Below are positions 30,754 through 49,328 of a DNA stretch of 50,106 bases, in pieces. The position numbers and the translations under genes are program-made. Every line of letters begins with the position of its first letter. Positions within the stretch are counted from its first letter, which is position 1. A model generated the notes under the pieces. That model had not been told where the DNA came from, did not search any database, and saw nothing but the letters and a program-made list of their open reading frames with translations. The DNA comes from a virus: the IMG/VR virus record IMGVR_UViG_3300027754_000138, positions 1-50,106 of that record; one strand, 5' to 3'.

Positions 30754-30754
30754 C

Positions 30755-32570: not shown

Positions 32571-33203
32571 ATGACAAAGTTACAAAATATAAAAGCCATT
32601 CGACAAATGTTAGATGGTACCCATAAGTCGCAGACTAAAAAAAATATTGGGTTTAATAGTAATAAGGTTGAACAAAAACGTGAAGTTGGAGAAACGTGGA
32701 AAGACGTTCATGGAGTTGAGTGGGAACAAAGAAATGGATTTAAAATTCAAAAAGGTAAACTTGATGAATTACGTGAAATGCTAGCAAAAACAAGAATGCC
32801 AGCAGAATGTCCTAAATGTAACCAACCAATGACAAAACGATTAGATAAAAAGTTTTGGGCATTGGAAAAACATTGTTTTGATTGTCAAATAGATTTTGAA
32901 CATAAACTTCATATTGAAAAAAAATACGAAGTGTATGAAAAACAAAAAATGTTAGCTAATGCTGAAGCTTGGTTAAAAGAAGCAGAAGCAGAAGCAATGG
33001 AAATAGTAGAAGCATTTCGAAATCCATTGACGTATGTTAATTCAGACGGAACTACTGAAGTTTGGACTGGAGCTGTAAGTAAAGAAGAAATGGCAGATAA
33101 AATTGAAAATGAATTTAAACTATTTAAAGAAAATTTTATAAATAAATTGAAGCAAGATAATTATGAACCCGAAAGTATCGAAAGAGTTAAAGAAAGCAAC
33201 TGA
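32571..33203 (+). CDS. Zinc-ribbon-containing hypothetical protein
   Basis: A 210-residue protein. The ATG at 32571 is preferred over an in-frame ATG at 32523 that would overlap the previous gene, because it follows the promoter motif and the usual AAAGTT context. Two CxxC knuckles (CPKC and CFDC, about 20 residues apart near residue 85) form a probable zinc ribbon, with flanking parts GETWKDVHGVEWEQRNGFK and a Glu/Ala-rich helix. Similar uncharacterised proteins occur in marine T4-like phages. No function can be named. Confidence 0.7.
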   Translation: MTKLQNIKAIRQMLDGTHKSQTKKNIGFNSNKVEQKREVGETWKDVHGVEWEQRNGFKIQKGKLDELREMLAKTRMPAECPKCNQPMTKRLDKKFWALEKHCFDCQIDFEHKLHIEKKYEVYEKQKMLANAEAWLKEAEAEAMEIVEAFRNPLTYVNSDGTTEVWTGAVSKEEMADKIENEFKLFKENFINKLKQDNYEPESIERVKESN

Positions 33204-33519
33204 AGACCTTCAAGCTAAAATGCTTGAAATGCAAACTGAAGAAGCTAAAATGCTTAAACTTAAAACTGCATTTGTTAACGAGTCTGATCCTGTAAAGCGT
33301 GAGAAGTTGAAAAAAGCTTTGATCGTACAACACAAAATACTTAAAGCTGTAGAAGCCGCTGCTGATAAAGCAGATGTTAATTTCCACAGTATTTTATCTT
33401 CAGAGCCTGAAGAAGATGTTCAAGATTTACTTGATCATAAACTTCAAGAGCATGTAGTTAGAATGAGAGTTCGTAAAATAGTTAAAGAATCTATCAAATC
33501 ACTTAAAAGAAAAAAATAA
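33163..33519 (+). CDS. Helical hypothetical protein
   Basis: A 118-residue, Lys/Glu-rich, almost wholly helical protein. The ATG overlaps the end of the preceding gene by 41 bases; a shorter start inside (Met19 or Met22) is possible. The C-terminus, VRKIVKESIKSLKRKK, resembles the (L/I)xE-containing leaders of neighbouring genes. Its stop overlaps the next start (TAATG). Function unknown. Confidence 0.6.
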   Translation: MNPKVSKELKKATEDLQAKMLEMQTEEAKMLKLKTAFVNESDPVKREKLKKALIVQHKILKAVEAAADKADVNFHSILSSEPEEDVQDLLDHKLQEHVVRMRVRKIVKESIKSLKRKK

Positions 33520-34178
33520 TGATTAAATTAAAAGATCTTTTAAATTTAAAAGAAGCTGTTGAAAAAGTTAAACCAGAATACACTCAAGAAGCTGTGTTTA
33601 AATTCTTTGATAAAAATAAAAAGAAATTAAAAACTCTTGCTGATAAAGATGAGTGGGATGAGTTTTATGAACTAGCTTTTATGGAATTTGCCGAAGGCGA
33701 TCAAGATATGATTGCAACGGCTATGAACAATGCAGCTTTACAAGCTGGATGGTTTGAAAACAATGTAGAAGATTATCGTCAAAGTGAAGCTGAATTAGAT
33801 ATGATGGCAAATGGCACCAAGCAACAACAAAAAGGTGTTGACACTGCTGCGTATGATAAAAAAGCAAAAACTCCTAAAAATACAAAAGAAGATTTAGTTC
33901 AACCACTTAAAGAACTAAAAAAAAAGATAGAAGAAGCTGAGTATCAAGGCAGAAAAGTAAATTTAGGAAAACCATTTTATACACCCGGCGGTCCTAGAAA
34001 GCGAGCTGTTTATGTTAAAAATGAAAAAGGAAATGTAGTTAAAGTAGGCTTTGGCGAACCAGGAATGAAAATTAAAAAAGACAATCCTGCACGAAGAAAA
34101 TCGTTTAGAGCTAGACATAACTGTGAAAACCCAGGACCTAGATGGAAAGCTAGATATTGGTCATGTAGAGCTTGGTAA
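33519..34178 (+). CDS. Putative internal head protein with repeat module and conserved C-terminal basic domain
   Basis: A 219-residue protein with the leader MIKLKDLLNLKEA. Residues ~22-79 form a ~57-residue module also present twice in the protein at 36564. The C-terminal ~75 residues (GKPFYTPGGPRKRAVYV, then KSFRARHNCENPGPRWKARY) form a very basic, Cys-containing domain that recurs, to my recollection, in many marine T4-like phages and some eukaryotic viruses, with unknown function; the basic character suggests DNA contact. The leader suggests packaging into the prohead and cleavage by gp21. The assignment is inference from leader and context. Confidence 0.65.
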   Translation: MIKLKDLLNLKEAVEKVKPEYTQEAVFKFFDKNKKKLKTLADKDEWDEFYELAFMEFAEGDQDMIATAMNNAALQAGWFENNVEDYRQSEAELDMMANGTKQQQKGVDTAAYDKKAKTPKNTKEDLVQPLKELKKKIEEAEYQGRKVNLGKPFYTPGGPRKRAVYVKNEKGNVVKVGFGEPGMKIKKDNPARRKSFRARHNCENPGPRWKARYWSCRAW

Positions 34179-34190
34179 TATTATAATAAA

Positions 34191-34214
34191 ATGATAAAAT
34201 GATAAAATGATAAA
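34191..34214 (+). repeat. Triple ATGATAAA octanucleotide at a gene start
   Basis: Three tandem copies of ATGATAAA. The first two ATGs open 3-codon frames (Met-Ile-Lys-stop), each stop overlapping the next ATG as ATGA; only the third (34207) continues into the gene. Confidence 0.9.
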
Positions 34215-36561
34215 ATTAAAAACGTTAATACTTGAAGCTGATACTGCAACTATTGCAGCAAATCTTAAAAAAGCTTATATGGCCGGACCAGCAGCAATGC
34301 GTGCATATTTAGACGGGCCAGAAGGTTCTTCTGAAGAAGCTAGAGCTTTATTACAAAAGCAAGCTGCTGATAATGACGGAGATGCTGCAGATGATAAAAT
34401 CACTATAGGTAAAGGCAGTGGCGCTGCAATGGGCTTTCAGCCAACTCAAAATCAAATTGATTTAATGCAGTCAATGTCTTATCCATTAGGTTCAACCAAA
34501 ACATTTTTACAAGCTATAGACAACCCAACAGCTGCAGGTATTGTTACTTCAGGTAAATTAATTATTGATGGTCATCATCGATGGTCTGGAATGATAGGCA
34601 TTGGCGGAGACGCTGCTCAAGTAGATAGTACGGACATTCAATGGCCAGGAAAAAATACCAATCAAATTCTTGCAGCAGCTCAATTAACAATAGCAGCTAA
34701 ATTAGGTGGTACTCAAAAAACTCCATCTCAAAGTGCAGAATTTAATACAAATATTTTAGGGGAGCCCGCAGATAAAATTACTAAAATGATAATGGCTAAT
34801 CTAGGAAAACGAACAGACAAAAACGCTCCTGGTCCATTGCTTAACAGACGAATGTGTTATGAGATTCTTAAAGATGCAAGTATACTTGCAAAAATTAATA
34901 AATGGTCTGGAGGCTCTGTGCAACCACTAAAAGAAATTAGTTTAAAACAAAAAAAAGCTGGTGAGAAAGCAGTAGATGAATTAAGATTATCAATTGCACA
35001 AAAAGTAGCAGAAAATTTAGCAGCACTACCAAAAAATGACAATGCTCCCGCTCGCGCAGATATGCCTCAATTTGATGATAAAGTCGGTGGGCCGAAACCA
35101 GATACAGTCAAAAGTCCTTTAGAAGCTGGAGAATTTAATGTAACTCCACCTTTTGCAAAAGAATCTATTCAAAATAAAAAAACAATATTAACTAAAAATA
35201 CAATGAAACAAAAATTAAAAATTTCAATTGCGGATCAAATAGCAACATTAAAAATGAAGCGTACTGCAAGAATTATTTCAGAATCGGAATATCAAAAACA
35301 AATTTATTTATTAGAAGCGGGTCCTAATACATTATCTACTTCTGAACCAATGGGTTTAGCAATTCTAGGAGCGCCGGCTGGCGGAAAAAGTTATACAATG
35401 AATAAAATAGCTGATTTAGCAGATGACCCTAGAATTTCATCAACTACAAAAAGCGGGCAAGATCTTACCGTAGATAAATTGCGAGCTGAATTTCAAAGTA
35501 AAACTGCTAAAGATCAATTAACAGGATTTGTACACGCATTTTATTTATTTAAAGAAAAAGCTAAACAAAATCCAGAACAATTTGCAAAATGGTTTGAAGA
35601 TATTAGCAAAATGTGGACCACTACATTAGCAAAATCATTACCAGAGCTTAAAATTACTGTTAGTAATGATAAATTAATGTTTGACGGCAAAGATTCTATA
35701 GATAATTTAGATATGTTAGATAAATTAGACGCTGAAGCTACGATTTCAAAATTAGATTCATATAATGATTATAAGCGTGTTGTAAGATATTTTCAATCTG
35801 TAAAACAAGCAGATGCTATTGATAAACAATTAAATATGTCTTATGACGAAGCTGGAGATGATCCAGGAAAAATTGTTGCTAATATGGATACATTACATAA
35901 AAAACAATATGTTACAGATGTTTTTTTAATTCATCCAACAAATATAGCTACTAATTTAATACAAAATTTTTATAGAGTTGTAATGGGAAATGACGGAGGT
36001 CGAGATTCTAGTGGCGCTATTATAACAGCATTTAATGATATTGAAAAATCAAAAAACATATATGCTGATAATGCTGAGGAAGTTATAGATGTAACTTCCA
36101 AGAATTTAAGTTCGGTTTCTAAAACATTAAAAAATGCAACAGTTGTTGATGATGCTGAAAATGGTGATAAACCTATAGATGTATTTGTAACTGTAGCTCC
36201 AATGGAGCCAGAAGAAGCATTTACGACATTTATAGGTAAATTAGATGATGAACAAAAAATAGTATTTAAAGCTTTATTAAAATATAGTGTTAAAGCATTG
36301 CAAGGTGTTCCAGCAAATGCTGTTAGTGTTATAAATAATTTAACTAGCAATCTTAAAGATTCTGAAGCTTTAGATATTTTAAAAAAAGCGGCTGCTGGTG
36401 AATTAAAAAACGTTTACCAACATGCACATGGAGGCGTTACAGACAAATTAGTTGCAAAAGCTACTACATTATTTAAAGAATCTAAAAATCGTATATTGAA
36501 TGATTTAGAAACAATACTTCAAGAATCTATTGCAACTTGGAAAAAGAATCGTCGTAAGTAA
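34207..36561 (+). CDS. ParB-like / P-loop kinase fusion, putative internal head protein
   Basis: A 784-residue protein with the leader MIKLKTLILEA. The N-terminal half holds a ParB/sulfiredoxin-type motif (IIDGHHRW, residues 119-126, with flanking GKL strand), and the C-terminal half a P-loop (GAPAGGKSYT, 388-397) of the zeta-toxin/polynucleotide-kinase type. Between them lies YLLEAG (366-372), matching the (L/I)xE|A form of gp21 cleavage sites, so the chain could be cut into two enzymes in the prohead. Its neighbours with the same leader support packaging with the DNA. Possible targets include host nucleotides, peptidoglycan precursors or proteins; none can be read from the sequence. It starts in the unusual octamer repeat. 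Confidence 0.65.
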   Translation: MIKLKTLILEADTATIAANLKKAYMAGPAAMRAYLDGPEGSSEEARALLQKQAADNDGDAADDKITIGKGSGAAMGFQPTQNQIDLMQSMSYPLGSTKTFLQAIDNPTAAGIVTSGKLIIDGHHRWSGMIGIGGDAAQVDSTDIQWPGKNTNQILAAAQLTIAAKLGGTQKTPSQSAEFNTNILGEPADKITKMIMANLGKRTDKNAPGPLLNRRMCYEILKDASILAKINKWSGGSVQPLKEISLKQKKAGEKAVDELRLSIAQKVAENLAALPKNDNAPARADMPQFDDKVGGPKPDTVKSPLEAGEFNVTPPFAKESIQNKKTILTKNTMKQKLKISIADQIATLKMKRTARIISESEYQKQIYLLEAGPNTLSTSEPMGLAILGAPAGGKSYTMNKIADLADDPRISSTTKSGQDLTVDKLRAEFQSKTAKDQLTGFVHAFYLFKEKAKQNPEQFAKWFEDISKMWTTTLAKSLPELKITVSNDKLMFDGKDSIDNLDMLDKLDAEATISKLDSYNDYKRVVRYFQSVKQADAIDKQLNMSYDEAGDDPGKIVANMDTLHKKQYVTDVFLIHPTNIATNLIQNFYRVVMGNDGGRDSSGAIITAFNDIEKSKNIYADNAEEVIDVTSKNLSSVSKTLKNATVVDDAENGDKPIDVFVTVAPMEPEEAFTTFIGKLDDEQKIVFKALLKYSVKALQGVPANAVSVINNLTSNLKDSEALDILKKAAAGELKNVYQHAHGGVTDKLVAKATTLFKESKNRILNDLETILQESIATWKKNRRK

Positions 36562-36563
36562 CA

Positions 36564-37097
36564 ATGATTAAGCTAGTAGATTTATTAAAAGAAATATCTG
36601 AAGATTCCTATCGCTTAAGTAATGAAATAATTGAAGTGCGTACTGCAATTCAAAAATTCTTTAATGATAATAAAATTACTTTAAAAGCGTTTGTAGATGA
36701 AAATAATTGGAATAATTACTATAATATGGCTATAAAAGATTTTCCAAATTTTAAATCTAGTGATATTGTTCAAGCAATGGGTAATCAAGCGCAAGGAGAA
36801 AATTGGTATATTAAATTACCAATTCCAGTATTAAATATGAATACAGGCCCTGCAAATAAACCATTTTTAAACATTGACATTAACAGTGATGTTTTAGAAA
36901 TTAACGCTGCTGTAGACGATTGGGTTAAAAAAAATAAAAAGCAATTAACTAAATTAGCTGACGAAAATAACTATAAAATGTTTTATCAATTAGCAAAAGA
37001 TAAATTTCCAAAAGCACAAGAAGATAAATTAGTATATGCAGTTAATATAGCCGCAATTACTTACGATATACATTATGAAATTTCAACCGAAAATTAA
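36564..37097 (+). CDS. Putative internal head protein with two repeat modules
   Basis: A 177-residue protein with leader MIKLVDLLKEISE. It consists mainly of two copies of a ~57-residue helical module (about 24-82 and 112-168), with the shared pattern NK-x2-L-x2-L-AD-x2-x-W/Y-x-x-F/Y-Y-x-LA and A-x-x-N-x-A near the end; a third copy is in the protein at 33519. The gene lies 2 bases after the ParB/kinase gene, and its TAA stop is followed directly by the next ATG. Function unknown; packaging into the head is inferred from the leader. Confidence 0.65.
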   Translation: MIKLVDLLKEISEDSYRLSNEIIEVRTAIQKFFNDNKITLKAFVDENNWNNYYNMAIKDFPNFKSSDIVQAMGNQAQGENWYIKLPIPVLNMNTGPANKPFLNIDINSDVLEINAAVDDWVKKNKKQLTKLADENNYKMFYQLAKDKFPKAQEDKLVYAVNIAAITYDIHYEISTEN

Positions 37098-37883
37098 ATG
37101 ATTAAGTTAGTAGATTTATTAAAAGAAGCGGAAGGAGAAACTCCTAAATGTCCAATAGCGACTCAAAATATCGAAGTCAATCTTGAACATCGTCAAAAAG
37201 CAATTGACGAATATGGATATGGTCCTTTAAATCCTAACAATCCAAATATTAAATTTTGGAAAGCAAAAGCGTCTGAGTGGCAATTAGATTCCATGGAAGA
37301 AGCTAAGTCATCTAGATGTAATAATTGCGCCGCTTTTAATATAACTTCTAGAATGCTTAATTGTATTGAAAAAGGAATTACATCAGGAGAAGTTGAAGTT
37401 CCAATAGCTAAAAAATCAGTTTCTACCGAAAACACATCTATTAATGAATTTCTTACTAAAGATTTAAACAATTTAAAATCAGCAATAAAAAAATTCAAAA
37501 TTAAAGTTACCGATTCGAAAATAATTAAAAATATAGAATCTATCATAGCAGCTCAGGTAATAGATCCATATGCTAATATTAAAACTGTTGTAGATCAAAT
37601 ACGTGATTATTTTAAAACTATTAATGGCCCAAAAAGCTATGATGAATATTTACAACAAACATTTGATCAAGCTCTTTATAATAGCAATTTAAAAAAATTA
37701 GCTGAAGGTGATGACGTAATTGTAGAACCAGAAACAGATGATACGGAAGGAGCTGCAAAAGACGCTTGGGATACTATTGAAGCTGGAAAATTAGGATATT
37801 GCACATTTCTTAAATTTAAATGTGCCGGATCTAGAACTTGCAATTCATGGGTAGTAGGCGGTCCTATTAAAGATAAAAAATAA
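37098..37883 (+). CDS. Cys-rich putative internal head protein, HiPIP-like pattern
   Basis: A 261-residue protein with leader MIKLVDLLKEAEG, almost identical to that of the preceding gene. Seven cysteines lie at 18, 74, 77, 89, 235, 242 and 248. The segments SRCNNCAAF (72-80) and GYCTFLKFKCAGSRTCNSWV (233-252) resemble the cluster-binding order of high-potential iron-sulfur proteins (CxxCxxF ... C ... CxxW), here split by a ~125-residue polar insert. The N-terminal segment QKAIDEYGYGPLNP is also conserved in marine phage proteins as far as I recall. Metal binding is plausible, not demonstrated. Confidence 0.65.
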   Translation: MIKLVDLLKEAEGETPKCPIATQNIEVNLEHRQKAIDEYGYGPLNPNNPNIKFWKAKASEWQLDSMEEAKSSRCNNCAAFNITSRMLNCIEKGITSGEVEVPIAKKSVSTENTSINEFLTKDLNNLKSAIKKFKIKVTDSKIIKNIESIIAAQVIDPYANIKTVVDQIRDYFKTINGPKSYDEYLQQTFDQALYNSNLKKLAEGDDVIVEPETDDTEGAAKDAWDTIEAGKLGYCTFLKFKCAGSRTCNSWVVGGPIKDKK

Positions 37884-37895
37884 AATGTAAAAGTT

Positions 37896-38141
37896 ATGCC
37901 ATTAGTAAAAACATTATTAGAAGCAAAAATATTATTAGCATTTCAAACAGCACAGACAGCAGTAGATGCTAGTTCTGCTCAAAGAAATCTAGCAAATGAT
38001 TTAGCTACTGCAATTGATGAATATATTAAAACTGCAACTATTATAACTCCTCCGGGACAAGCAATTTCAGGAGCAGGAGGCGGACCGGCGCCAGTAGTTG
38101 GATCGACAGTAACCCCTTCGAGCCCAGCTATTATTACTTAA
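37896..38141 (+). CDS. Small hypothetical protein with Gly/Pro-rich tail
   Basis: An 81-residue protein. The N-terminus MPLVKTLLEAK again has an LLE-A sequence. Residues ~15-50 are helical (LANDLATAIDEYIKTATI), and the last ~30 residues are Gly/Pro/Ala-rich. The start is in the AAAGTT-ATG context. Its stop codon lies in the left arm of the hairpin at 38139. No family is recognised; it is not an obvious small terminase. Confidence 0.6.
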   Translation: MPLVKTLLEAKILLAFQTAQTAVDASSAQRNLANDLATAIDEYIKTATIITPPGQAISGAGGGPAPVVGSTVTPSSPAIIT

Positions 38142-38182
38142 CATTACTAGCTTTATATTTATATAATATAAAAGTAATGTTA
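38139..38182 (+). promoter_or_regulatory. Long hairpin holding a late promoter motif and the next start codon
   Basis: TAACATTACT (38139-38148) pairs perfectly with AGTAATGTTA (38173-38182); inside, TTTATATT (38152-38159) pairs with AATATAAA (38165-38172). The promoter-like TATATTTATA (38154-38163) sits in the inner part. The right arm contains the ATG of the next gene (38177-38179), and the left arm contains the stop of the previous gene. In read-through RNA the start would be buried; RNA started inside would lack the left arm. Confidence 0.75.
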
Positions 38183-38524
38183 CAAATAAATAAACTTTCA
38201 AGTATATTATTAATCGTAATTGCAGTTTTAATTGCAATCATAATTATTACTTCAAATAATTCAAATGAAATAGATAAATATGCAGTACAAAAAATTAAAA
38301 TTGACAGTTTATCAAAAATTATCAATGTATTAGAACAAGATCAACTTAAATACGATAATACCATTGCAGTTTATAGAGATAGTTTATCTTTAATGGATTC
38401 ACAAATTGACTCAACAAAAAACAAAATAAAAAAAATACAAAATGATTACGGTAAAAAAATTAAAATTATTAGTAGTGCTAATCACGATGAGCTTAGCGAC
38501 TTTTTCACAAACAGGTACAAATAA
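38177..38524 (+). CDS. Membrane-anchored coiled-coil protein, possible inner-membrane spanin
   Basis: A 115-residue protein with one N-terminal membrane helix (residues ~7-27, Leu/Ile-rich) and then a periplasmic-type coiled coil ending LSDFFTNRYK. This is the layout of Rz-type i-spanins, which link to an outer-membrane partner to fuse the membranes at lysis. The last 83 bases overlap the start of the next gene in a different frame, as Rz and Rz1 do. Its start codon is inside the hairpin at 38139-38182, which would delay translation to late times. The spanin call is inference from architecture. Confidence 0.6.
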   Translation: MLQINKLSSILLIVIAVLIAIIIITSNNSNEIDKYAVQKIKIDSLSKIINVLEQDQLKYDNTIAVYRDSLSLMDSQIDSTKNKIKKIQNDYGKKIKIISSANHDELSDFFTNRYK

Positions 38525-38861
38525 AAAAGTTCATTGTTTTCCAGACAGCGTTGCAAAACAAATTGCAATTGATTTAATAAAAGGCGATTCTGCAAAAGTA
38601 GAATTAGCTAAGACTAACATACTAGTAAATCAATTAGAAGAAAAAACTAAAACAAACGATAGATTGGTTACAATGTACGTTAACAAAGTATCTAACTATG
38701 CATCGCAAATTGAGTTGTATAGAAAAAAAGAAACTGAGTATCATACCATAGTATTTGGTTTGGAAAAAGATGTTGTTAAAGCAAAAAAAGCAAACAAGTA
38801 TTTTAGAATAGCAGTATCAGGATTAATCGTAACTACTGTACTAGGATTTACAATACGTTAA
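38442..38861 (+). CDS. Signal-peptide protein overlapping the spanin-like gene
   Basis: A 139-residue protein. Residues 1-22 form a signal peptide (VKKLKLLVVLITMSLATFSQ), with the FSQ ending typical of Bacteroidota. A helical coil follows (about 45-118), and then a C-terminal hydrophobic helix (FRIAVSGLIVTTVLGF, ~121-136). It begins inside the preceding gene in another frame (83-base overlap). Together they may form a lysis pair, but the C-terminal membrane helix and lack of a lipobox Cys differ from a classical o-spanin lipoprotein. It lies 11 bases before the terminase gene. Confidence 0.6.
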   Translation: MITVKKLKLLVVLITMSLATFSQTGTNKKVHCFPDSVAKQIAIDLIKGDSAKVELAKTNILVNQLEEKTKTNDRLVTMYVNKVSNYASQIELYRKKETEYHTIVFGLEKDVVKAKKANKYFRIAVSGLIVTTVLGFTIR

Positions 38862-38872
38862 TAGTTTAGGTT

Positions 38873-40480
38873 ATGGAAGCAAAGTCATTAAAAGAAATAA
38901 TCAAAGAAGAGTACAAGAAATGTTTAATAGATCCTGTCCACTTCATGAAAAGATTTTGTCAAATTCAACATCCACAAAAAGGAAAAATTCCATTTCATTT
39001 ATATCCGTTTCAAGAGGAGGCCTTAAGAGACCTACGAGATCATGATTATAACGTCATATTAAAATCAAGGCAATTAGGTATATCGACTCTAAGCGCCGGC
39101 TATGCTCTTTGGCTTATGACGTTTTTTGGGGATAAAAATATTCTAGTTATCGCTACTAAACAAGAAGTAGCAAAAAATTTAGTTTTAAAGGTAAAAGTCA
39201 TGTATGAAAATTTACCATCATGGCTAAAACTACCAGCATCAGAAGATAATAAATTATCATTACGTCTTAATAACGGTTCTCAAATTAAAGCAACTTCATC
39301 GTCAGGAGACTCTGGACGTTCAGAAGCATTGTCTTTGCTAATAATAGATGAAGCTGCGTTTATTTCCAATGTAGAAGAAATTTGGATATCATCACAACAA
39401 ACTTTAGCAACAGGAGGAGGAGCAATTATATTATCAACTCCTAATGGCACCGGTAACTTTTTTCATAAAACTTGGGCAAATGCTGAAAATGGTGTTATTA
39501 ATGAAAGTACTAAATCAGTTAAATTTAATCCAATTAAACTTCGTTGGGATGTACATCCTGACAGAGATCAAAATTGGAGAGATAGACAAGATGAATTGTT
39601 AGGAGCAAAAGGCGCTGCACAAGAATGTGATTGTGACTTTATCACTTCAGGTCATTCCGTAATTGAAGGACCACTTTTAAAATGGTATGAAGAAACTCAC
39701 GTTAAACCTCCTATAGAAACTCGTGGTCCAGAATCTGGATTATGGATTTGGGAATTACCTGATTATACTAAAAACTACATTGTAGTAGCTGACGTGGCTC
39801 GTGGAGATGGAGCTGACTACTCAGCATTTCATGTTATTGACGTTGAATCCATTTCACAAATAGCAGAATTCAAAGGACATATATCTACTAAAGATTATGG
39901 AAACATGTTAGTAAACATTGCTACAGAATACAATGACGCTTTGTTAGTAATTGAAAATGCTAATGTTGGTTGGGCATCTATTCAAGTAGCAATAGACAGA
40001 GGCTATAAAAATTTATATTATTCTCCTAAAGACAATTCTGTATCAGACGTATCACAGCAATTAGCTAGATATGTTGATTTAAAAGATACTTCACAAATGA
40101 CTCCTGGATTTACTACATCATCTCGAACTCGTCCTTTAGTAATTTCAAAATTAGACACTTACATGAGAGAGCGACTTCCTATAATACGCAGTAAACGATT
40201 AATAGAAGAACTGCAAGTATTTATTTGGAACGGCTCGCGACCAGAAGCACAACGTGGTTATAACGATGATTTAGTAATGGCATTTTCTATTGCATTATGG
40301 ATGCGAGATACCGCATTGAAACTTCGTCAACAAGGAATGGATTTAAACAGAAAAACTTTAGATTATTTTGGTATGGGAAGAGGTGCATATAATAATACAG
40401 CTGGCAATTTAAAAAATGCTGGATGGTCTATGACTACTGGAAAACCGGGAGAAGACCAAGATTTAACATGGTTATTGTAA
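38873..40480 (+). CDS. 17: Terminase large subunit, gp17-like
   Basis: A 535-residue packaging motor protein. The ATPase half has a deviant Walker A (LKSRQLGIST, 63-72: Ile replaces the usual Lys before Ser-Thr, and Lys64 probably takes its role) and Walker B LLIIDE (155-160). The nuclease half has the RNase H-type acidic residues: Asp307 in VADVARGDGADYS, Glu361 in VIENANVGW and Asp465/466 in GYNDDLVMAF. It cuts and pumps concatemeric DNA into the prohead. The small terminase is not identified in the window. In T4 sheath and tube follow; here the portal follows directly. Confidence 0.92.
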   Translation: MEAKSLKEIIKEEYKKCLIDPVHFMKRFCQIQHPQKGKIPFHLYPFQEEALRDLRDHDYNVILKSRQLGISTLSAGYALWLMTFFGDKNILVIATKQEVAKNLVLKVKVMYENLPSWLKLPASEDNKLSLRLNNGSQIKATSSSGDSGRSEALSLLIIDEAAFISNVEEIWISSQQTLATGGGAIILSTPNGTGNFFHKTWANAENGVINESTKSVKFNPIKLRWDVHPDRDQNWRDRQDELLGAKGAAQECDCDFITSGHSVIEGPLLKWYEETHVKPPIETRGPESGLWIWELPDYTKNYIVVADVARGDGADYSAFHVIDVESISQIAEFKGHISTKDYGNMLVNIATEYNDALLVIENANVGWASIQVAIDRGYKNLYYSPKDNSVSDVSQQLARYVDLKDTSQMTPGFTTSSRTRPLVISKLDTYMRERLPIIRSKRLIEELQVFIWNGSRPEAQRGYNDDLVMAFSIALWMRDTALKLRQQGMDLNRKTLDYFGMGRGAYNNTAGNLKNAGWSMTTGKPGEDQDLTWLL

Positions 40481-40493
40481 AATAGTCTTGGTT

Positions 40494-40528
40494 ATTAGGG
40501 TTTTAGATATTTATTTAAAATAGCTAAT
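40494..40528 (+). promoter_or_regulatory. Inverted repeat whose loop is a late promoter motif
   Basis: TTTTA (40501-40505) and TAAAA (40516-40520) enclose exactly GATATTTATT (40506-40515); an outer pair ATTAG (40494-40498) / CTAAT (40524-40528) extends the stem past a small internal loop. The ATG of the portal gene is at 40534. Confidence 0.55.
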
Positions 40529-40533
40529 TAAAT

Positions 40534-42405: not shown

Positions 42406-42415
42406 AATTAAAAGA

Positions 42416-42440
42416 TTACTATCTCCATATTTATTAGTAA
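42416..42440 (+). promoter_or_regulatory. Short inverted repeat around late promoter motif CATATTTATT
   Basis: TTACTA (42416-42421) and TAGTAA (42435-42440) flank CATATTTATT (42426-42435). It lies 22-26 bases upstream of the ATG at 42462, at the start of the prohead core gene cluster. Confidence 0.5.
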
Positions 42441-42461
42441 AGAAAATAAAAGCCTTTCTGA

Positions 42462-43307
42462 ATGAAAAATTTAAAGCACTCAAAATTTAAAAACACCGGA
42501 GTATTATTCGAATTACTTGTACGTCAAGTAACGTCAGATACTTTAAACAATAGCGATTCAAAGGCAATACCACTTATTAAAAAGTATTTTGCTAAGTCTA
42601 CAGAATTAGCTAAAGAATTTAATTTGTATCAAACTTTAATTAAAGAAAAATTTACAAAGGAAGAAAAAGCTAATCACTTAATTGAAGCTGTATTACTAGC
42701 TAAATCTCAATTAAATCAAGCCGCTCTTAACAGACAGAAATATAATTTAATTAAAGAAATTAAAAATAATTACGTATTAGAAGATTTTTTTAAATCTAAA
42801 GTTAATAATTACAAGGCATTAGCTGCAATTTATAAAATGTTTGAATATACCATTGCAGATCATCCAACAGAATCAGTTAATAATAGATATACAATTGTTG
42901 AGCATATAATTCGTAAAGACGTTGCTAAATCTGCTGTTAAGAATGAAATGTCTGAATTTATAAAACAAGACAAAGACGTTCGTTTATTGTCTTATAAAAT
43001 TTTAGTTGATAAATTCAATGAAAAATATTACGATTTAAATGAAGGACAGAAATCTATATTAAGAAATTATATCAATGCCGTTTCAGAAGGAACAGAATTA
43101 AAATCTTTTATTGTTAATGAAGTTAATAAACTTCAAACTTCTTTAAAAACATTAACTTCTAAAGTTGATGATAAAGTTGTTAAAATTAAATTAACAGAAG
43201 TAACTAATTTATTAAATGAAATTTCAGTAGCTAAATCAATTAAAGATACTCATATATTAAGTTTATTACGTTACCACGAATTAATTAAAGAACTTAAAAA
43301 AGTATAA
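42462..43307 (+). CDS. Helical protein between portal and protease, probable prohead core protein
   Basis: A 281-residue, Lys/Glu-rich helical protein beginning with the conserved-looking segment FKNTGVLFELLVRQVTSDTL, which I recall from marine T4-like phages at the same place. T4 has the prohead core genes 67 and 68 here, between 20 and 21, but sequence similarity to those is not evident. Its position behind a late promoter motif and within the head block supports a core or scaffold role. Confidence 0.65.
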   Translation: MKNLKHSKFKNTGVLFELLVRQVTSDTLNNSDSKAIPLIKKYFAKSTELAKEFNLYQTLIKEKFTKEEKANHLIEAVLLAKSQLNQAALNRQKYNLIKEIKNNYVLEDFFKSKVNNYKALAAIYKMFEYTIADHPTESVNNRYTIVEHIIRKDVAKSAVKNEMSEFIKQDKDVRLLSYKILVDKFNEKYYDLNEGQKSILRNYINAVSEGTELKSFIVNEVNKLQTSLKTLTSKVDDKVVKIKLTEVTNLLNEISVAKSIKDTHILSLLRYHELIKELKKV

Positions 43308-43320
43308 TTACTATTAATTT

Positions 43321-43845
43321 ATGTTATATATAAATACATTTAAAAAAATTCTTAAAGAGTCTGGAGAACCTGAAGATAATTCTCGTTTAATAGATGATGA
43401 AGAAGATGACTTTCAAATAGACGACATTGAAGAAATATCAACTTCAGCAGGCGCCGGCGGGTATGAAACTCCTAATGCTTTTGGAGAGTTAGGTGATGAT
43501 ACTATAGAAATGCTAGGATATAAAAAAGTTAAGAAAGTTAAAAAGAACGAAGTTAAAGAATCGGATTTTATGAAATTTTCTAAGGAACTTTATCTTAATG
43601 AAATTTCATATAATGAATATAGAAAAGATCCAATAGCTTCTCCAAAGTCAAAAATTAATAATTCAATTAATTTTATTAATAGAGGATTGAAAGAAATTGA
43701 AAAAGTAGTTAATCAAAATGTACGTTTAAAACAAGAAATAGGAGTTGATAACGGTATATATTGGAAATCATCTCGAGAAAATCTTACTAAAATTAGTGAG
43801 CGTTTATTAAGGGTTTCAAAACAATTAAAAGAATTAGCATCTTAA
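43321..43845 (+). CDS. Acidic prohead core-like protein
   Basis: A 174-residue protein. The leader INTFKKILKESGE has an (L/I)xE-S site. An acidic patch (IDDEEDDFQIDDIEE) follows, then the segment STSAGAGGYETPNAFG, which I recall as conserved in the head cluster of marine T4-like phages, and a helical C-terminal half. It lies directly before the gp21 protease (1-base gap), as prohead core genes do in T4. Its likely fate is packaging in the core and digestion by gp21. Confidence 0.65.
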   Translation: MLYINTFKKILKESGEPEDNSRLIDDEEDDFQIDDIEEISTSAGAGGYETPNAFGELGDDTIEMLGYKKVKKVKKNEVKESDFMKFSKELYLNEISYNEYRKDPIASPKSKINNSINFINRGLKEIEKVVNQNVRLKQEIGVDNGIYWKSSRENLTKISERLLRVSKQLKELAS

Positions 43846-43846
43846 T

Positions 43847-44452
43847 ATGGAAAAAAAATTAATAGTAGACTATATTACATTTAACGTTACTCCGGAACAA
43901 ATAAATGAGTCTATGGAAAAAAACAATGGACGATTAATGGTTAAAGGCGTATTACAACGTGCAGAAGCTAAAAATCAAAACGGGAGAGTATATCCTAGAA
44001 ATGTATTAATGCGTGAAGCAAAAAAATATTCTGATATTAATATAAAAGAAAGAAGAGCTTTAGGAGAATTAGATCATCCAGATTCTTCAGTAGTAAATTT
44101 AAATAACGTGTCTCATAACATTACAGAAATGCATTGGCAAGAGAATGATTTAGTTGGAACTGTAGAAGTGCTTTCAACTCCTTCAGGTAATATTTTAAAA
44201 GAGTTATTTAAGTGTGGTATTAAATTAGGAATTTCTTCTAGAGGTTTAGGATCTGTAAAAGAATTAGGAGAAGGCAAAGTAGAAGTGCAAGATGATTTTG
44301 AATTAATTGCTTTTGACTTTGTATCTAATCCATCTACTCAAGGAGCTTTTCTAGCTCCAGTTAATGAATCAATGCAACATGGTTTAATTAAACCATCTAA
44401 ATATGCAAAAGTTAATCGATTAATTACCGATATATTATCAGACATTAAATAA
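43847..44452 (+). CDS. 21: Prohead core protease, gp21-like
   Basis: A 201-residue protease of the T4 gp21/S80 type. Catalytic His77 lies in RALGELDHPDSS, and the nucleophile is Ser130 or Ser131 in LGISSRGLGS; FELIAFDFVSNPS (151-163) closes the fold, with Asp157 a possible triad member. T4 gp21 cuts scaffold, core, internal and capsid proteins after (I/L)xE. The length is close to T4 gp21 (212 residues). Its upstream core and downstream scaffold and capsid genes complete the expected assembly module. Confidence 0.9.
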   Translation: MEKKLIVDYITFNVTPEQINESMEKNNGRLMVKGVLQRAEAKNQNGRVYPRNVLMREAKKYSDINIKERRALGELDHPDSSVVNLNNVSHNITEMHWQENDLVGTVEVLSTPSGNILKELFKCGIKLGISSRGLGSVKELGEGKVEVQDDFELIAFDFVSNPSTQGAFLAPVNESMQHGLIKPSKYAKVNRLITDILSDIK

Positions 44453-44460
44453 TTATTAAT

Positions 44461-44664
44461 ATGAAATTAGAAGATTTATATAAATCAAGTAAAGCTAATC
44501 TTAAACCTTCCATATATTCTAGTCAAAGTGCTCAACTAGTTGATCACTCAAAATTAAATATAGATAAGGTTCCTAGTAAATACAATTTAGCTGGTAAAAT
44601 AGTAAAAATAAAAGATCCTTCAAAATATAACGTCGACGGAAACCCTGCAAAATATAAAGGATAA
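44461..44664 (+). CDS. Small protein with SKYN repeats
   Basis: A 67-residue basic protein with leader MKLEDLYKSSK. Short near-repeats PSKYNLAGK, PSKYNVDGN and PAKYKG fill the C-terminal half. No family recognised. Its stop overlaps the next ATG (TAATG). Position in the head block suggests a minor head or core component. Confidence 0.55.
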   Translation: MKLEDLYKSSKANLKPSIYSSQSAQLVDHSKLNIDKVPSKYNLAGKIVKIKDPSKYNVDGNPAKYKG

Positions 44665-45065
44665 TGAAACGATTAGATTTACAAAAAATAATACGAGAAG
44701 AAGTTAAATCAGTATTGGAATTTACTCAACCAGTTTCAAATACTGAAGCTCCTAGCGAAGCAGTAATTAAAGGAGTGCAAAAAGAACTTAAACTTAAAAC
44801 TGGCATTATAGCTTCATTAGGGTTGAATAAAACGACTCGTAATGGATTTTATTATACCTATGATTTATCTAAAGAAATTCGTACACCAGTACTTAATTCT
44901 TTATTTTCTTCAATGACACTTGACATAACTGCAGTACCTTCAGGACAAATTGGAGGATATACTTTTTCAGTGTCAATTAATTACACTCATCCTGATGGAG
45001 GGTCTAATGGAAAAAATATTGGAACTATATTTTATATAAATAATGTATTTAAATCTAGATTTTAA
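44664..45065 (+). CDS. Hypothetical head-cluster protein
   Basis: A 133-residue protein with leader LQKIIREEVKSVLEF, like those at 8855 and 49427. The rest (~45-133) is a beta-rich domain (GFYYTYDLS, MTLDITAVPSGQIGGYTFSV) with no recognised family. It is translationally coupled to the preceding gene. A minor virion role is possible. Confidence 0.6.
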   Translation: MKRLDLQKIIREEVKSVLEFTQPVSNTEAPSEAVIKGVQKELKLKTGIIASLGLNKTTRNGFYYTYDLSKEIRTPVLNSLFSSMTLDITAVPSGQIGGYTFSVSINYTHPDGGSNGKNIGTIFYINNVFKSRF

Positions 45066-45124
45066 AATGTTATTTATGTATAAAAAAAGCAATTAAATTA
45101 GAAAATATGAAATTAAATAAATAA

Positions 45125-45691
45125 ATTAAATTAGCAGATTTGCTTAAAGAAGGTGAAGACGCTACTGCTGGTATGTCTACAGAACAGAAAAAAGCTTTTT
45201 TAGAAGCTGTGTATCAATTTGCAGAACATTCAAATTCAATTTATAGAAAACATTCTTTAAAAGAAACTTCTCAATATTTAGGAGAGCTTATTGAAGCTGC
45301 TCATCATTTAACTTTGTCTGAAACTGAAGATTGGTTTGACGCTAATACCGTTAATCGTCATATGAAACATTTAGGTGAATCATTTAAAATATTTGAAAAG
45401 ACAGCTCAAGAAATGTCGACATTGCAACAGCGTTTAGAATCTGCTTATGAAGATATCGGAGGTACTTTAAATAAGTATTATGATGTAGGTGGTATGGTTA
45501 CAGAAGCGACTTCAGGAGATGACTATCAAAAGTTCTTTTCAAAAGCAATGAAAAAGTTTAAAATTCAAGAGCCTTCAGATTTAGAAGCTCCTAGAGATAA
45601 AAAGAGATTTTTTAACTGGGTGGATAAAAATTATGTAGCTAAGGAAGAGCCTAGCAAAGACAAAGGAGTTAAACCTGCTCCTAAGAAATAA
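45125..45691 (+). CDS. Putative internal head/core protein with anomalous start
   Basis: A helical acidic protein. The frame from 45125 reads IKLADLLKEGED, matching the leader MIKLVDLLKE of the genes at 36564 and 37098, but the first codon is ATT. Upstream in the same frame an ATG (45107) is followed after four codons by TAA (45122-45124). Translation may start at ATT (45125) or TTG (45140, giving 183 residues and losing most of the leader); I favour ATT because the leader is otherwise intact. The C-terminal part ends FKIQEPSDLEAPRDKKRFFN and a Lys/Pro tail. Function unknown. Confidence 0.55.
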   Translation: MKLADLLKEGEDATAGMSTEQKKAFLEAVYQFAEHSNSIYRKHSLKETSQYLGELIEAAHHLTLSETEDWFDANTVNRHMKHLGESFKIFEKTAQEMSTLQQRLESAYEDIGGTLNKYYDVGGMVTEATSGDDYQKFFSKAMKKFKIQEPSDLEAPRDKKRFFNWVDKNYVAKEEPSKDKGVKPAPKK

Positions 45692-45695
45692 TAAT

Positions 45696-46499
45696 ATGAA
45701 ATTAGCTCCTATAGCACAAAATGTTATAACGACAAATCTTATAAAACTTTTAACAGAATCCGCAACTGGAGATGCAGAGTCAGTGCAAGCACAAATGTCT
45801 GCTTTAAGTACTGAACTTAAAAAAGACGGAGAAGATATTACAGACGATGAAGTTCAAGCAGCTATGCTTTCTGCATTAATAGATGCAGACGGTAAAGTTG
45901 ATGATATTAACGTATCTGATGTTGATGCTATAAAAAAAGAAATTAAAGAATCTAGGTCTTATTTAAATGAAGTCGATGGTATATTACATTCTATTGAAGC
46001 TGTTGGTACTGTATTAGGTAATTCCGCATTTATACACATTTTAACTGAAGGATTAAATAAAATAGGATTTACCGGCGTTGATGAAAATAAATTAAAAGCT
46101 AGAATTGAAAAAGTAGTTTCTGCAATTAAAAGTGTAACAGGCTTTCCAGCTAAAATAATGGATAAAGCTTTTTCTTGGTTTGCTAAAAAATTAGGAGTTG
46201 GAGAACTAGGACAAAAAATAGCTGGTATAGCAGGAGTATTATTAGTTACAATTGTTTTATTAGCTCTTGCAGCTTATTTATTTCCTTCAATTACATCAGG
46301 AATATTAATTGTATTTGCTATTTCAGGAATGGTCGGAAAAAGTTTAGAAATTTTTAAATTAATTAAAAAATTAATAGCACATATCAAAGAACATCAAGCT
46401 GAAATTAACTCTGACTCTAAAGAAGATAATACTAAATCAACTACTAAACCTAGCGCCGCTCGACAGCGATACTTAAATAGAAAAACTAAGCCACAGTAG
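45696..46499 (+). CDS. Membrane-associated head-cluster protein
   Basis: A 267-residue protein. The N-terminal ~25 residues contain LIKLLTESATG, similar to the leader sites of its neighbours. Residues ~30-165 are acidic and helical. Two hydrophobic helices follow at about 174-196 and 201-217, then a basic helix and a polar tail. A two-helix membrane protein next to scaffold genes may serve as a prohead initiation or membrane-anchoring factor, comparable in role to T4 gp31/gp40-dependent assembly, but this is speculation. Confidence 0.55.
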   Translation: MKLAPIAQNVITTNLIKLLTESATGDAESVQAQMSALSTELKKDGEDITDDEVQAAMLSALIDADGKVDDINVSDVDAIKKEIKESRSYLNEVDGILHSIEAVGTVLGNSAFIHILTEGLNKIGFTGVDENKLKARIEKVVSAIKSVTGFPAKIMDKAFSWFAKKLGVGELGQKIAGIAGVLLVTIVLLALAAYLFPSITSGILIVFAISGMVGKSLEIFKLIKKLIAHIKEHQAEINSDSKEDNTKSTTKPSAARQRYLNRKTKPQ

Positions 46500-46579
46500 T
46501 TAGTACTCTATTATAGATACTTAACTTAAAATTTCTTAAAAATATTTCATACAAATGGATAGGTTTTTCTGTCTATGTA

Positions 46580-46589
46580 CATATTTATT
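46580..46589 (+). promoter_or_regulatory. Putative late promoter motif CATATTTATT
   Basis: CATATTTATT lies 103 bases upstream of the scaffold ATG, the only site in the window with a long predicted leader. The 192-base gap 46500-46692 is the largest intergenic region. Confidence 0.55.
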
Positions 46590-46604
46590 ATCGTAACGCA
46601 CAAT

Positions 46605-46665
46605 ACCTTATTTCTATATAAGGTGCAATAAAATAACTATTTTATTAAGATTTCCAATAATCTTA
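46605..46665 (+). promoter_or_regulatory. Three consecutive stem-loops in the scaffold gene leader
   Basis: Hairpin 1: ACCTTAT/ATAAGGT (46605-46624, loop 6). Hairpin 2: AATAAAAT/ATTTTATT (46627-46646, loop 4). Hairpin 3: TAAGATT/AATCTTA (46646-46665, loop 6). All lie between the promoter motif and the ATG at 46693, which has an AGGA sequence 5 bases before it. They may control stability or translation of the scaffold-capsid mRNA. Confidence 0.6.
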
Positions 46666-46692
46666 TTTCCAATTAAAAACAATAAAAGGACA

Positions 46693-47616
46693 ATGAAAGA
46701 CCTATTAAAAGAAGCTATTGCTGATGCAAAAGCGGTGAGACAAACTGCGCTAGCAAATGCGAAGATGGCTCTAGAAGAAGCTTTCACTCCAAGACTTCAA
46801 TCTATGTTGTCTGCTAAATTAGCTGAAGACTTGTCTGACGAAGACGAGACTGACGAAAATGATGCAATACCAACAGAAGAAGAAGAAACGGAAATGAAAG
46901 AAAAACCAGAAATGGAAGAAGGCGACGAAATGCCAGAAGAAGGCGACGAAGTGCCAGAAGAAGGCGACGAAGTGCCAGAAGAAGAACCGACTATGGAAGG
47001 TGAAGAAGATGATTTAGATTTAGAAGAAATTATCAGAGAATTAGAAGGCGACGAAAACCCAGCAATGGAAGAGCCGTCTATGGAAGAAGAAAAGAAGCGA
47101 AGTGATATGACTCAGTCTGAAAAAGATGAGTATGATGCAGAAAGCAGACGTTTGACATCCGAAGAAGATGAAGAAATCAACATTGAAGAAATCATTAGAT
47201 CTTTACGTGAAGAAGATGAGGAACAAGAATTACCAGAAGAAGAAAAAACAGAAGAAGTACCTGCAGAAGAGCTTGAAGAAGCTTATAATGTAATACGATT
47301 CTTAAAAGGCAAAATTAATGAAGTAAATTTATTAAATGCTAAACTTTTGTATTCTAATAAATTATTCCGTAATTTTTCTTTAAATGAAGGACAAAAAATG
47401 AAAGTGATCGAAAATTTCGATAGAGCTTTTACTTTGCGTGAAGTAAAATTAGTATATTCAACTTTAGCTGAAGGCTTTAAAATGCCATCAACTAGAAAAG
47501 TAGTTAAAGAATCGTTTGCCTCGAAGCCTATTGCTTCAACAAAACCTGCAAGGCAAATAATTTCTGAAAGTACTGAATTAGCTAATCGTTTCAAAAAACT
47601 AGCAGGATTAAAATAA
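46693..47616 (+). CDS. 22: Prohead scaffold protein, gp22-like
   Basis: A 307-residue, very acidic protein directly upstream of the major capsid gene. The leader MKDLLKEAIADAKAVRQTAL resembles the start of T4 gp22. Residues ~45-195 are Glu/Asp-rich and low in complexity, with three 7-residue repeats EEGDE(M/V)P at 75-95. The helical C-terminal part (FLKGKINEVNLLNAKLLYSN, LREVKLVYSTLAEGF) is the conserved scaffold region. Scaffold assembles with gp23 and is degraded by gp21 before packaging. Sites such as IISES near the end fit that protease. Confidence 0.85.
   Translation: MKDLLKEAIADAKAVRQTALANAKMALEEAFTPRLQSMLSAKLAEDLSDEDETDENDAIPTEEEETEMKEKPEMEEGDEMPEEGDEVPEEGDEVPEEEPTMEGEEDDLDLEEIIRELEGDENPAMEEPSMEEEKKRSDMTQSEKDEYDAESRRLTSEEDEEINIEEIIRSLREEDEEQELPEEEKTEEVPAEELEEAYNVIRFLKGKINEVNLLNAKLLYSNKLFRNFSLNEGQKMKVIENFDRAFTLREVKLVYSTLAEGFKMPSTRKVVKESFASKPIASTKPARQIISESTELANRFKKLAGLK
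46915..46977 (+). repeat. Three 21-base repeats in the scaffold gene
   Basis: Tandem units encoding EEGDEMP, EEGDEVP and EEGDEVP; the last two are nearly identical at the base level (GAAGAAGGCGACGAAGTGCC). They lie in the acidic linker. Confidence 0.85.
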
Positions 47617-47642
47617 TTAATTAACTTAAAACAAAATTTAAA

Positions 47643-49328
47643 ATGTCATTACATTCAATTTTAAACGAAAGCACATCTGCTGTTCGTAAACAAATGGACG
47701 AGACCAAAGGCTTAGTAGGCAAATGGTCAAAAACCGGTTTGTTAGAAGGAATCGATACCGAGTACGATAGACACGGTATGGCGATTATGCTTGAAAATCA
47801 AGCAAAACAATTAGTAACAGAAGCTAATGCAACTGGTACTGCATCAAACTCAGAACAATGGTCAGGTGTTGCTTTACCATTAGTACGTCGTGTGTTTGCA
47901 GAAATTGCAGCTAAAGACTTCGTATCTGTTCAACCAATGAATTTACCATCAGGTCTTGTATTTTACATGGACTTCAAATATGGTTCATCTCAACCTGGAT
48001 TTAGCACAACTAACACTAGTACTACACCTAGCGCTGCTGGTTATCAAAATAACTCAGTATTTGGTGTAACTTCTGATACTGCAAATGCTTCTCAAGGTCT
48101 TTATGGAGCTGGTCGTTTCGGATATTCAATGAATAAATCAGTTGCTTCTATTAGCGCTTCTGGATCTTTTACTCCAGATGCAACTAAAATTAAAATTAGC
48201 ACTGCATTAACAATGGCATCTGATGCTGACTTAGATGAATTTAACTACGATAGTAATTTTACTACTGCGTTTTCTGCTTCAATTGCTGCAGGTCACTTTA
48301 AGAAACTTACTGTATCTGTTGATTCATTAACTAGTCCAGATTTAGAAGGTGTTCGTGCTTATTCATTATCAGGTTCTAGCACAGGTCATATTAATACTGT
48401 ATTTCCACAATTTACTAAAAATGTTAATGACACAACTTTAACGTTTGTTGTATCTGGATCTATTTTATCTACCGCTGCTGCTGCTAATGTTAATGTTCAA
48501 TATCAAAAACAACCGGCTGCGAGTACTCGTGGTGATTTTGAAGATACTACAGGTAACGGAACTGACATCAATATTCCAGAAATCAATGTTGAATTGAAAT
48601 CTGAAGCTATTGTTGCTAAAACTCGTAAGTTAAAAGCAGTTTGGTCTCCAGAATTTGCTCAAGATTTAAATGCTTATCATTCAATTGATGCTGAAGCTGA
48701 ATTAACTTCTATGTTATCTGAATATATTTCTCAAGAAATTGATTTAGAAATTTTAGATATGTTGATTCAAAATGCAGTGACTACTGAAAATTGGTCAGCA
48801 GCTTTAGGATATGAGTACTCTGCCGCTTCTGATACTTTTGCTAGTATTGGTAATGCTGCTGCAGCTGCTTATACTCAACAAACTTGGTTCCAAACTTTAG
48901 GAACTAAGATTCAAAAAGTATCTAATAAAATTCACCAAAAGACAATGCGTGGTGGTGCAAACTTCTTAGTTTGTTCTCCTGACGTTGCTACTATATTAGA
49001 GTCTATCCCAGGATATGCTGCTGATACTAATGGCGACAAAATGCAGTTTGCAATGGGTGTTCAGAAAGTTGGTATGTTAAATAGCCGCTACACTGTATAC
49101 AAAAACCCATATATGACTGACAACGTAGTGTTATTAGGTTACCGTGGTGCTCAGTTCCTAGAAACAGGAGCTGTGTATGCTCCATACATTCCATTAATTA
49201 TGACTCCATTAGTTTATGATCCTACCAACTTTACTCCACGTAAAGGTGTTATGACTCGTTATGCTAAGAAAATGGTTCGTCCAGAATTTTATGGTACTGT
49301 TAAGATTCATGGTTTACACTTAGTATAA
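47643..49328 (+). CDS. 23: Major capsid protein, gp23-like
   Basis: A 561-residue precursor of the HK97-fold capsid protein. The N-terminal prodomain (1-60) ends QLVTE|ANATG, matching T4 gp23, which is cut by gp21 after Glu65. Then the conserved core begins: LPLVRRVFAEIAAKDFVSVQPMN (in part) with LVFYMDFKYGSS. Later parts MRGGANFLVCSPDVATILE, and the end APYIPLIMTPLVYDP and RYAKKMVRPEFYG are gp23 hallmarks. A Ser/Ala/Thr-rich insert lies at about 110-310. Codon use is visibly richer in C and G-ending codons than neighbours, as expected for the most expressed gene. Confidence 0.93.
   Translation: MSLHSILNESTSAVRKQMDETKGLVGKWSKTGLLEGIDTEYDRHGMAIMLENQAKQLVTEANATGTASNSEQWSGVALPLVRRVFAEIAAKDFVSVQPMNLPSGLVFYMDFKYGSSQPGFSTTNTSTTPSAAGYQNNSVFGVTSDTANASQGLYGAGRFGYSMNKSVASISASGSFTPDATKIKISTALTMASDADLDEFNYDSNFTTAFSASIAAGHFKKLTVSVDSLTSPDLEGVRAYSLSGSSTGHINTVFPQFTKNVNDTTLTFVVSGSILSTAAAANVNVQYQKQPAASTRGDFEDTTGNGTDINIPEINVELKSEAIVAKTRKLKAVWSPEFAQDLNAYHSIDAEAELTSMLSEYISQEIDLEILDMLIQNAVTTENWSAALGYEYSAASDTFASIGNAAAAAYTQQTWFQTLGTKIQKVSNKIHQKTMRGGANFLVCSPDVATILESIPGYAADTNGDKMQFAMGVQKVGMLNSRYTVYKNPYMTDNVVLLGYRGAQFLETGAVYAPYIPLIMTPLVYDPTNFTPRKGVMTRYAKKMVRPEFYGTVKIHGLHLV

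Follow-up and report, generated by a model that had tools for sequence, protein, structure and literature searches.

A shared N-terminal leader in the head block of a T4-like phage and its predicted role in capsid targeting

Why should four consecutive phage genes begin with nearly the same ten residues? The question is raised by the virus record IMGVR_UViG_3300027754_000138, of which positions 1 to 50,106 (hereafter the window, meaning that whole 50-kb stretch) carry the head block of a T4-like phage. In the window, the genes at 33519, 34207, 36564, and 37098 all start with ATG and encode proteins beginning MIKLxxLL(x)E. A preliminary description of the DNA had likened this start to the leader that targets T4 internal proteins to the head and is cut by the prohead protease gp21, and had proposed the 33-38 kb region as a cargo island. 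In our assessment, the leaders are very probably capsid-targeting propeptides of the T4 type that the neighbouring S77 protease removes, with the cargo packaged and probably injected; that the genes at 33.5-37.9 kb form one cargo block is part of this reading and is held with the same confidence. The main features are listed below, where a slash marks a cut and gene starts were assigned by simple rules.

38873, terminase gene, named from sequence and position
40534, portal gene, named from sequence and position
43847-44452, plus strand, prohead protease, Peptidase_S77 (T4 gp21 family; Pfam 3.5e-29, phrog_207 3.8e-56), aligned with T4 gp21
47643, major capsid gene
47811-47822, plus strand, probable maturation site LVTE60/A61 of the major capsid protein (MCP); LxE is kept in nearly all MCPs recovered from relatives
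33519-33554, plus strand, leader MIKLKDLLNLKE of the 33519 protein, predicted cut LKE12/A13; orthologues have MIKLKTLLKE and MIKLKDLLKE; outscores all internal decamers
33519-34178, plus strand, cargo candidate: leader, helical domain of about 60 residues (common to 36564), and C-terminal phrog_7595 module
34207-34236, plus strand, leader MIKLKTLILE (10 residues), predicted cut E10/A11; orthologues have MKQELITEAARLQKLAGILKE/A at the same place
34207-36561, plus strand, cargo candidate of 784 residues with a ParB/sulfiredoxin-like DGHHR part and a P-loop part
35305-35319, plus strand, predicted internal cut YLLE/A of 34207, between the ParB-like and P-loop parts and outside the region common to shorter orthologues
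36564-36593, plus strand, leader MIKLVDLLKE, predicted cut E10/I11 (profile score and register pattern)
36564-37097, plus strand, cargo candidate of 177 residues with the helical domain in two copies
37098-37127, plus strand, leader MIKLVDLLKE, predicted cut E10/A11 (profile score and register pattern; 14 leader-bearing family members in relatives)
37098-37883, plus strand, cargo candidate of a Cys-rich family (CPxATQN...GYCxxxxFKCAGSRTC)

Leader genes and the prohead protease of the window

The near-identity of the four leaders was borne out from the open reading frames. A profile built solely from the leaders of two other genomes ranked every one of the four higher than any of the window's 14,867 internal decamers (empirical p = 6.7e-5, the lowest value that the test allows). 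A register-only pattern, M..φ..φφ.E, which keeps just the T4 register (hydrophobic residues, φ, at 4, 7, and 8 and Glu at 10), matched 34207, 36564, and 37098 (3 against 0.09 expected); 33519 was missed because two extra residues precede its Glu. The adjacency of the leader genes, with a longest run of 4, gave a permutation p of 0.002. The proposed cargo island holds, and in relatives another island, larger than this one, lies in a different part of the genome.

When the same pattern was applied to 66 genes of the T4 head region, exactly IPII, IPIII, and gp24 were matched (0.12 expected), and as every match there is a known gp21 substrate, T4 serves as a positive control. The likeness to the T4 leader extends to the length and register of IPII, IPIII, and gp24. 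In T4 IPIII, targeting depends on leader residues 4 and 7 and processing on residues 8 and 10; the cut by gp21 follows L/I-x-E (PMC9026906). The claim of a gp21-type protease near the leader genes was also confirmed: it is a genuine Peptidase_S77 by profile, and its His, Ser, and Asp line up with the catalytic residues of T4 gp21. S77 was encoded on 11 of the 22 longer leader contigs. Ten of the 11 contigs with no S77 also had no T4 portal and, as far as the searches show, do not cover the head block; the eleventh stops just past the portal.

In the case of the cargo itself, the four proteins have no assigned function: a Pfam search gave them no domain, and only the DGHHR and GAPAGGKS motifs of 34207 and weak fold matches were obtained. 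Residues 1-336 of 34207 form the ParB/sulfiredoxin-like part with DGHHR, a part that is conserved in relatives, while the P-loop part (GAPAGGKS, residues 388-395) was not found in the relatives' versions. The fold model of 34207 gave top matches in the PDB that included ParB/sulfiredoxin (Srx)-type folds, none significant, and is suggestive of a ParB/Srx fold likeness. The fold search with 36564 (mean model pLDDT, a per-residue confidence score, of 66.6) returned no significant match. A defence-system library assigned no defence function to the window proteins, with just a weak match for 37098 (18.5 bits). The C-terminal phrog_7595 module of 33519 (33927-34178; SFRARHNCxxPGPRxKARYWSC) also occurs in Pelagibacter, Roseobacter, and Methylophilales phages.

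The cultured relatives of the window capsid were Microcystis phage Mel-JY01 (59%), Flavobacterium phage immuto (55%), and Rhodothermus phage RM378 (37%). The full name of immuto is vB_FspM_immuto_2-6A, and its host is Flavobacterium sp. LMO8. The window phage likely infects a member of the Bacteroidota, because the sole relative of the window protease in the GTDB collection sits on a contig binned as Flavobacteriales.

Spread, variants, and exchange of the leader

In the protease-bearing contigs, found via the window protease, 65 genes had products beginning M(I/L)KL, and 55 of these had Glu10 against a background of 7% (p about 3e-53). Viral contigs were scanned with MIKLKD(φ)L, in which Glu was not imposed and all counts are lower bounds, and at least 115 distinct genes were found, with Glu10 in 104 of 115. 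Split by BLASTP, these genes formed at least 74 unrelated families, although some distant homologues may be counted separately; a smaller set gave 28 families. Related genomes thus carry the same leader on unrelated C-terminal parts, a strongly positive result for the search proposed in the preliminary description. With the leader permuted, 14 chance matches were obtained, none of which lay in a reading frame of more than 35 codons, meaning that none was a gene.

Among the matches listed, an upstream stop lay at most 60 codons away in 112 of 115 genes, residues from 11 onward were unconstrained, no upstream consensus preceded the genes, and Asp6 was encoded by GAC in 61 and GAT in 54. Leu4 used all six Leu codons (TTA, CTA, CTT, CTC, and others), and Leu8 codons were mixed. 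Since the codon choice is free, the peptide and not the DNA is under selection. Moreover, in 148 genomes of the order to which the Flavobacteriales metagenome-assembled genome belongs, the only leader match was on the phage contig in that genome, and the 147 others had none. Searching cultured phages by tblastn with the leaders gave no match, as expected for 20-residue queries, and no paper printing the leader peptides was found among the open-access papers searched.

A second leader (type B) of 20 residues, MKx(S/T)EFRKLIREEVRKφφxE, starts 57 distinct genes of 43 families, with Glu20 in 50 of 57, and shares with the short leader the φφxE end and the very gene runs in which it lies. In the relative G002, seven short-leader genes, interrupted by one other gene, precede six long-leader genes. 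In the cultured phage immuto, three proteins bear a variant particular to that phage, M.NFDLKKFLVENKLT. A third class, RRMQKLAGIITE, is a lead only, as most matches to its pattern were internal in unrelated proteins; 23 were N-terminal, with Glu in 16 of 23.

Leader genes were clustered in G001 and G002 (permutation p = 5e-5 in both; longest runs 8 and 9), with one block upstream of the terminase and a second, larger block far off; the second block of relatives reaches nine consecutive leader genes. As the window is a fragment, such a second block would fall outside it. The register-only pattern matched ten genes each in G001 and G002 and six in G009 (0.09-0.39 expected across the window and relatives).

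Leaders were also swapped between orthologues with φφxE retained. One such family is represented in the window, having been absent from the preliminary description:

44664-44720, plus strand, type-B-like leader MKRLDLQKIIREEVKSVLE of a 133-residue protein; orthologues have type B or type-A-like leaders

On the same mature part of this protein, which starts EPSEQ, orthologues bear either type B (MKELRNLIAREVKKALKE/D) or a type-A-like leader (MKLKDLLEFKKGRLNE/E). Similarly, in the 34207 orthologues, MKQELITEAARLQKLAGILKE/A replaces MIKLKTLILE/A and is aligned at the cut site, and one cargo family starts MIKLKNILNE/A in G002 and MRLLELLRE/A in immuto, where the gene is gp082 at 112261-112575 of the immuto record. 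The LVTE60/A site of the window MCP, placed by aligning position and motif, shares its φφxE form with the leader ends. Furthermore, the joints of fused cargo genes (L016, L013, the 33163-33519 fusions, and G002 10392) hold a full leader or a φxE site, and 34207 and G002 10392 are two-part polypeptides with a predicted cut site between their parts.

Profile matches of the leader proteins in relatives included Tox-ART-HYD1 (2e-5, over the cut-off), AAA_33 (2.5e-10), Zeta_toxin (8.6e-10), NUDIX (4.9e-16), RNase_T (7.1e-11), and phage lysozyme (4.9e-14), while an ART-PolyVal match reached only E = 0.018, below the cut-off. That contractile-tailed phages package ADP-ribosyltransferases (ARTs) and NUDIX proteins has been argued on independent grounds (PMC9503650). 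By their profiles, the predicted cargo types (Tox-ART-HYD1, zeta kinase, NUDIX, and exonuclease) match known or predicted injected effectors (PMC9503650, PMC5512222).

Packaging and its alternatives

If the leaders are capsid-targeting propeptides, the amphipathic N-terminus (hydrophobic at 4, 7, and 8) would attach the otherwise unrelated proteins to the scaffold core while the prohead grows late in infection. Once the shell is complete, the S77 protease would cut after Glu10 (Leu-x-Glu/x), and the cut would free the mature proteins into the head, which is later filled with DNA. The mature proteins would probably enter the host with the DNA and may act at once on defence and metabolism. Several points weigh against this. 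Virion proteomics for any phage with this leader was not found in the open-access papers searched, and the unconstrained residue after the cut (P1') fits gp21 yet adds no proof. Two diverged relatives (G003 and G005) have very few such leaders, and the majority of the cargo has no assigned function. A few leader proteins resemble tail lysins; in L190:1725-2972, the leader stands on a protein with Peptidase_M23 and Phage_lysozyme2, which has the look of a tail lysin and is not obviously head cargo.

This likely tail lysozyme, together with type-B-like starts near tail genes (8855), would suit a leader that directs proteins elsewhere, namely to the tail or baseplate, the membrane, or an intracellular compartment. 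However, the leader register is identical to that of the T4 head propeptides, the short leader ends at a prohead-protease site, and the leader is found on a conserved core-protein family between the protease and capsid genes (45125 family, L166 family), so that such a destination is improbable. We consider it equally improbable that the leader stays uncut and serves as a docking helix by which proteins reach the scaffold or core, with Glu as part of the helix. The leader is indeed predicted to be helical, at low confidence, and Asp at position 10 of the T4 IPIII leader blocks processing while still allowing targeting (PMC9026906), which separates the two functions; the MCP N-termini ILNDS and ILGDS may be a case of uncut docking. 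Against this, Glu10 varies hardly more than the hydrophobic residues even though it stands at the motif end, φφxE is retained while the rest of the leader is swapped, and the probable site of MCP maturation has the same φφxE. A signal in the DNA (for translation start or recombination) or a remnant of recent gene duplication, which could form tandem runs such as those of the leader genes, is the least credible account and is hardly to be entertained given the mixed codons of Leu4, Asp6, and Leu8, the lack of an upstream consensus among the matches listed, the unrelated mature parts, and the absence of the leader from the 147 remaining genomes of the bacterial order searched.

On comparing the predicted capsid-targeting leader with known systems, it is closest to the T4 capsid targeting sequence (IPII, IPIII, and the gp24 propeptide), with which it shares 10 residues, hydrophobic positions 4, 7, and 8, Glu10, the L/I-x-E end, the placement of one leader on unrelated mature proteins, and an S77 protease from the same phage. 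It differs in sequence (MIKLKDLLxE here, MKTYQEFIAE in T4), in having at least 74 cargo families instead of few, in its tandem runs, with some 20 leader genes in each genome, in the parallel 20-residue class, and in fused cargo with internal sites. As with T4 Alt and the internal proteins, which are injected host-takeover factors, ARTs occur among the leader-bearing proteins, but the predicted functions are broader and include zeta-type kinases, NUDIX, HAD-like, exonuclease, and papain-like proteins, some by motif only. In phiKZ and SPN3US, a T4-type prohead protease also removes head propeptides after x-x-Glu, and two SPN3US paralogues have an identical 15-residue start (PMC5694885); however, those propeptides are mostly longer than 100 residues, use A/S-x-E, and are shared between paralogues. 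The P1 DarB signal is likewise N-terminal (<30 residues) and sufficient for packaging in DarB (PMC9024508), but the signals of the Dar proteins have no consensus. Polyvalent proteins are multidomain with ART and ParB-like domains and are predicted to be packaged and injected (PMC5512222), whereas the proteins here are mostly separate, small, and joined by a shared leader, and no metallopeptidase domain was seen.

A wider proposal, for which we see the case as evenly balanced, is that a large group of uncultured T4-like phages, probably on Bacteroidota, uses a few interchangeable N-terminal tags as a modular delivery system. The tags would comprise 10- and 20-residue classes and lineage-specific variants, any tagged gene would become virion cargo, and each phage would bring along some 20 predicted effectors made in advance and encoded in exchangeable cassettes, a few of them being polyproteins that are cut within the head. 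If true, the probable packaged effectors of this phage group could be listed from sequence alone. This would yield many testable candidates for counter-defence and takeover proteins, the majority with folds not yet known, together with a delivery tag that has relatives in an already cultured Flavobacterium phage.

Other candidate sites and neighbouring genes

Further leader-like starts in the window had been proposed earlier, and those retained in whole or in part are as follows.

43321-43359, plus strand, leader-like start MLYINTFKKILKE/S of a 174-residue protein upstream of the protease; relatives have FKKFLKE/S, KKKLLNE/T, and SKLLVE/S
45107-45151, plus strand, MKLNK-TAA-IKLADLLKE, leader of a core-protein family with an in-frame TAA; relatives read MKTNKSIKLADLLKE, with Ser at the TAA position
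45696-45758, plus strand, 21-residue N-terminus ending LLTE/S; orthologues keep φ-x-E, followed by S or N and GDA
46693-47616, plus strand, scaffold protein, named from sequence and position, with start MKDLLKEAIADAK; Glu is not kept in immuto (LLKQ)

The related sites at 43321 and 45696 stood, with φ-x-E/S kept in most relatives. At 45125, IKLADLLKE exists, but the proposed gene start does not hold: no ordinary start codon precedes it, and the frame from ATG 45107 meets TAA where relatives have Ser in MKTNKSIKLADLLKE. An ATT start was rejected because relatives have the upstream ATG and the Ser codon. The TAA may reflect a genuine loss, an atypical start, or a mistake in the assembly. The window also has no counterpart of the MPYTYKKEGDKYVVYKK module of about 45 residues that relatives fuse upstream of the 45125-family protein. 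In L070:1785-2795, the MPYKVKKQGDKYVVYKKDTG module is also fused ahead of a 34207-like protein, and it may for this reason be a mobile N-terminal module in its own right. For the scaffold, MKDLLKEA is mostly conserved, but it lies within a long conserved N-terminus and, with LLKQ in immuto, is weak as a modular leader.

Two other proposed sites failed on alignment. The LLE-A-type site of 37896 has no conserved Glu (orthologues MPLIKPVLELQ or MPLVSPLLAAQ), so 37896 was rejected as a leader protein, and the capsid prodomain site ILNES was dropped as a cut site because relatives have ILNDS or ILGDS. The terminase start SLKEIIKEE is conserved as part of the terminase and is no leader.

Upstream of the leader genes, the fusion encoded at 30710-32551 combines a nucleotidyltransferase domain (CTP_transf_like, 9.4e-6) with a DPCWTGYHQVGMKKKGAKKVPNCVP module and also has an internal ILKE/G and a KxDG motif. 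In G009, its homologue is placed behind an ART-like part in one polypeptide, a fusion that suggests a supply of nicotinamide adenine dinucleotide (NAD) beside its use. On the tail side, 1672-2325 is a ClpP-like serine protease gene (NGGDVYEALGI...SAAAMIL). Among the tail genes, 8053-8787 starts MSDILKES and has a Cys-Gly-Leu-Cys...GHFVY pattern like that of a papain-like peptidase, with one weak relative found, and the 8855 protein near them has a type-B-like start. Lastly, 14735-19333 encodes a large structural protein with a low-complexity stretch of SSSLIPSSSLIPSSS repeats.

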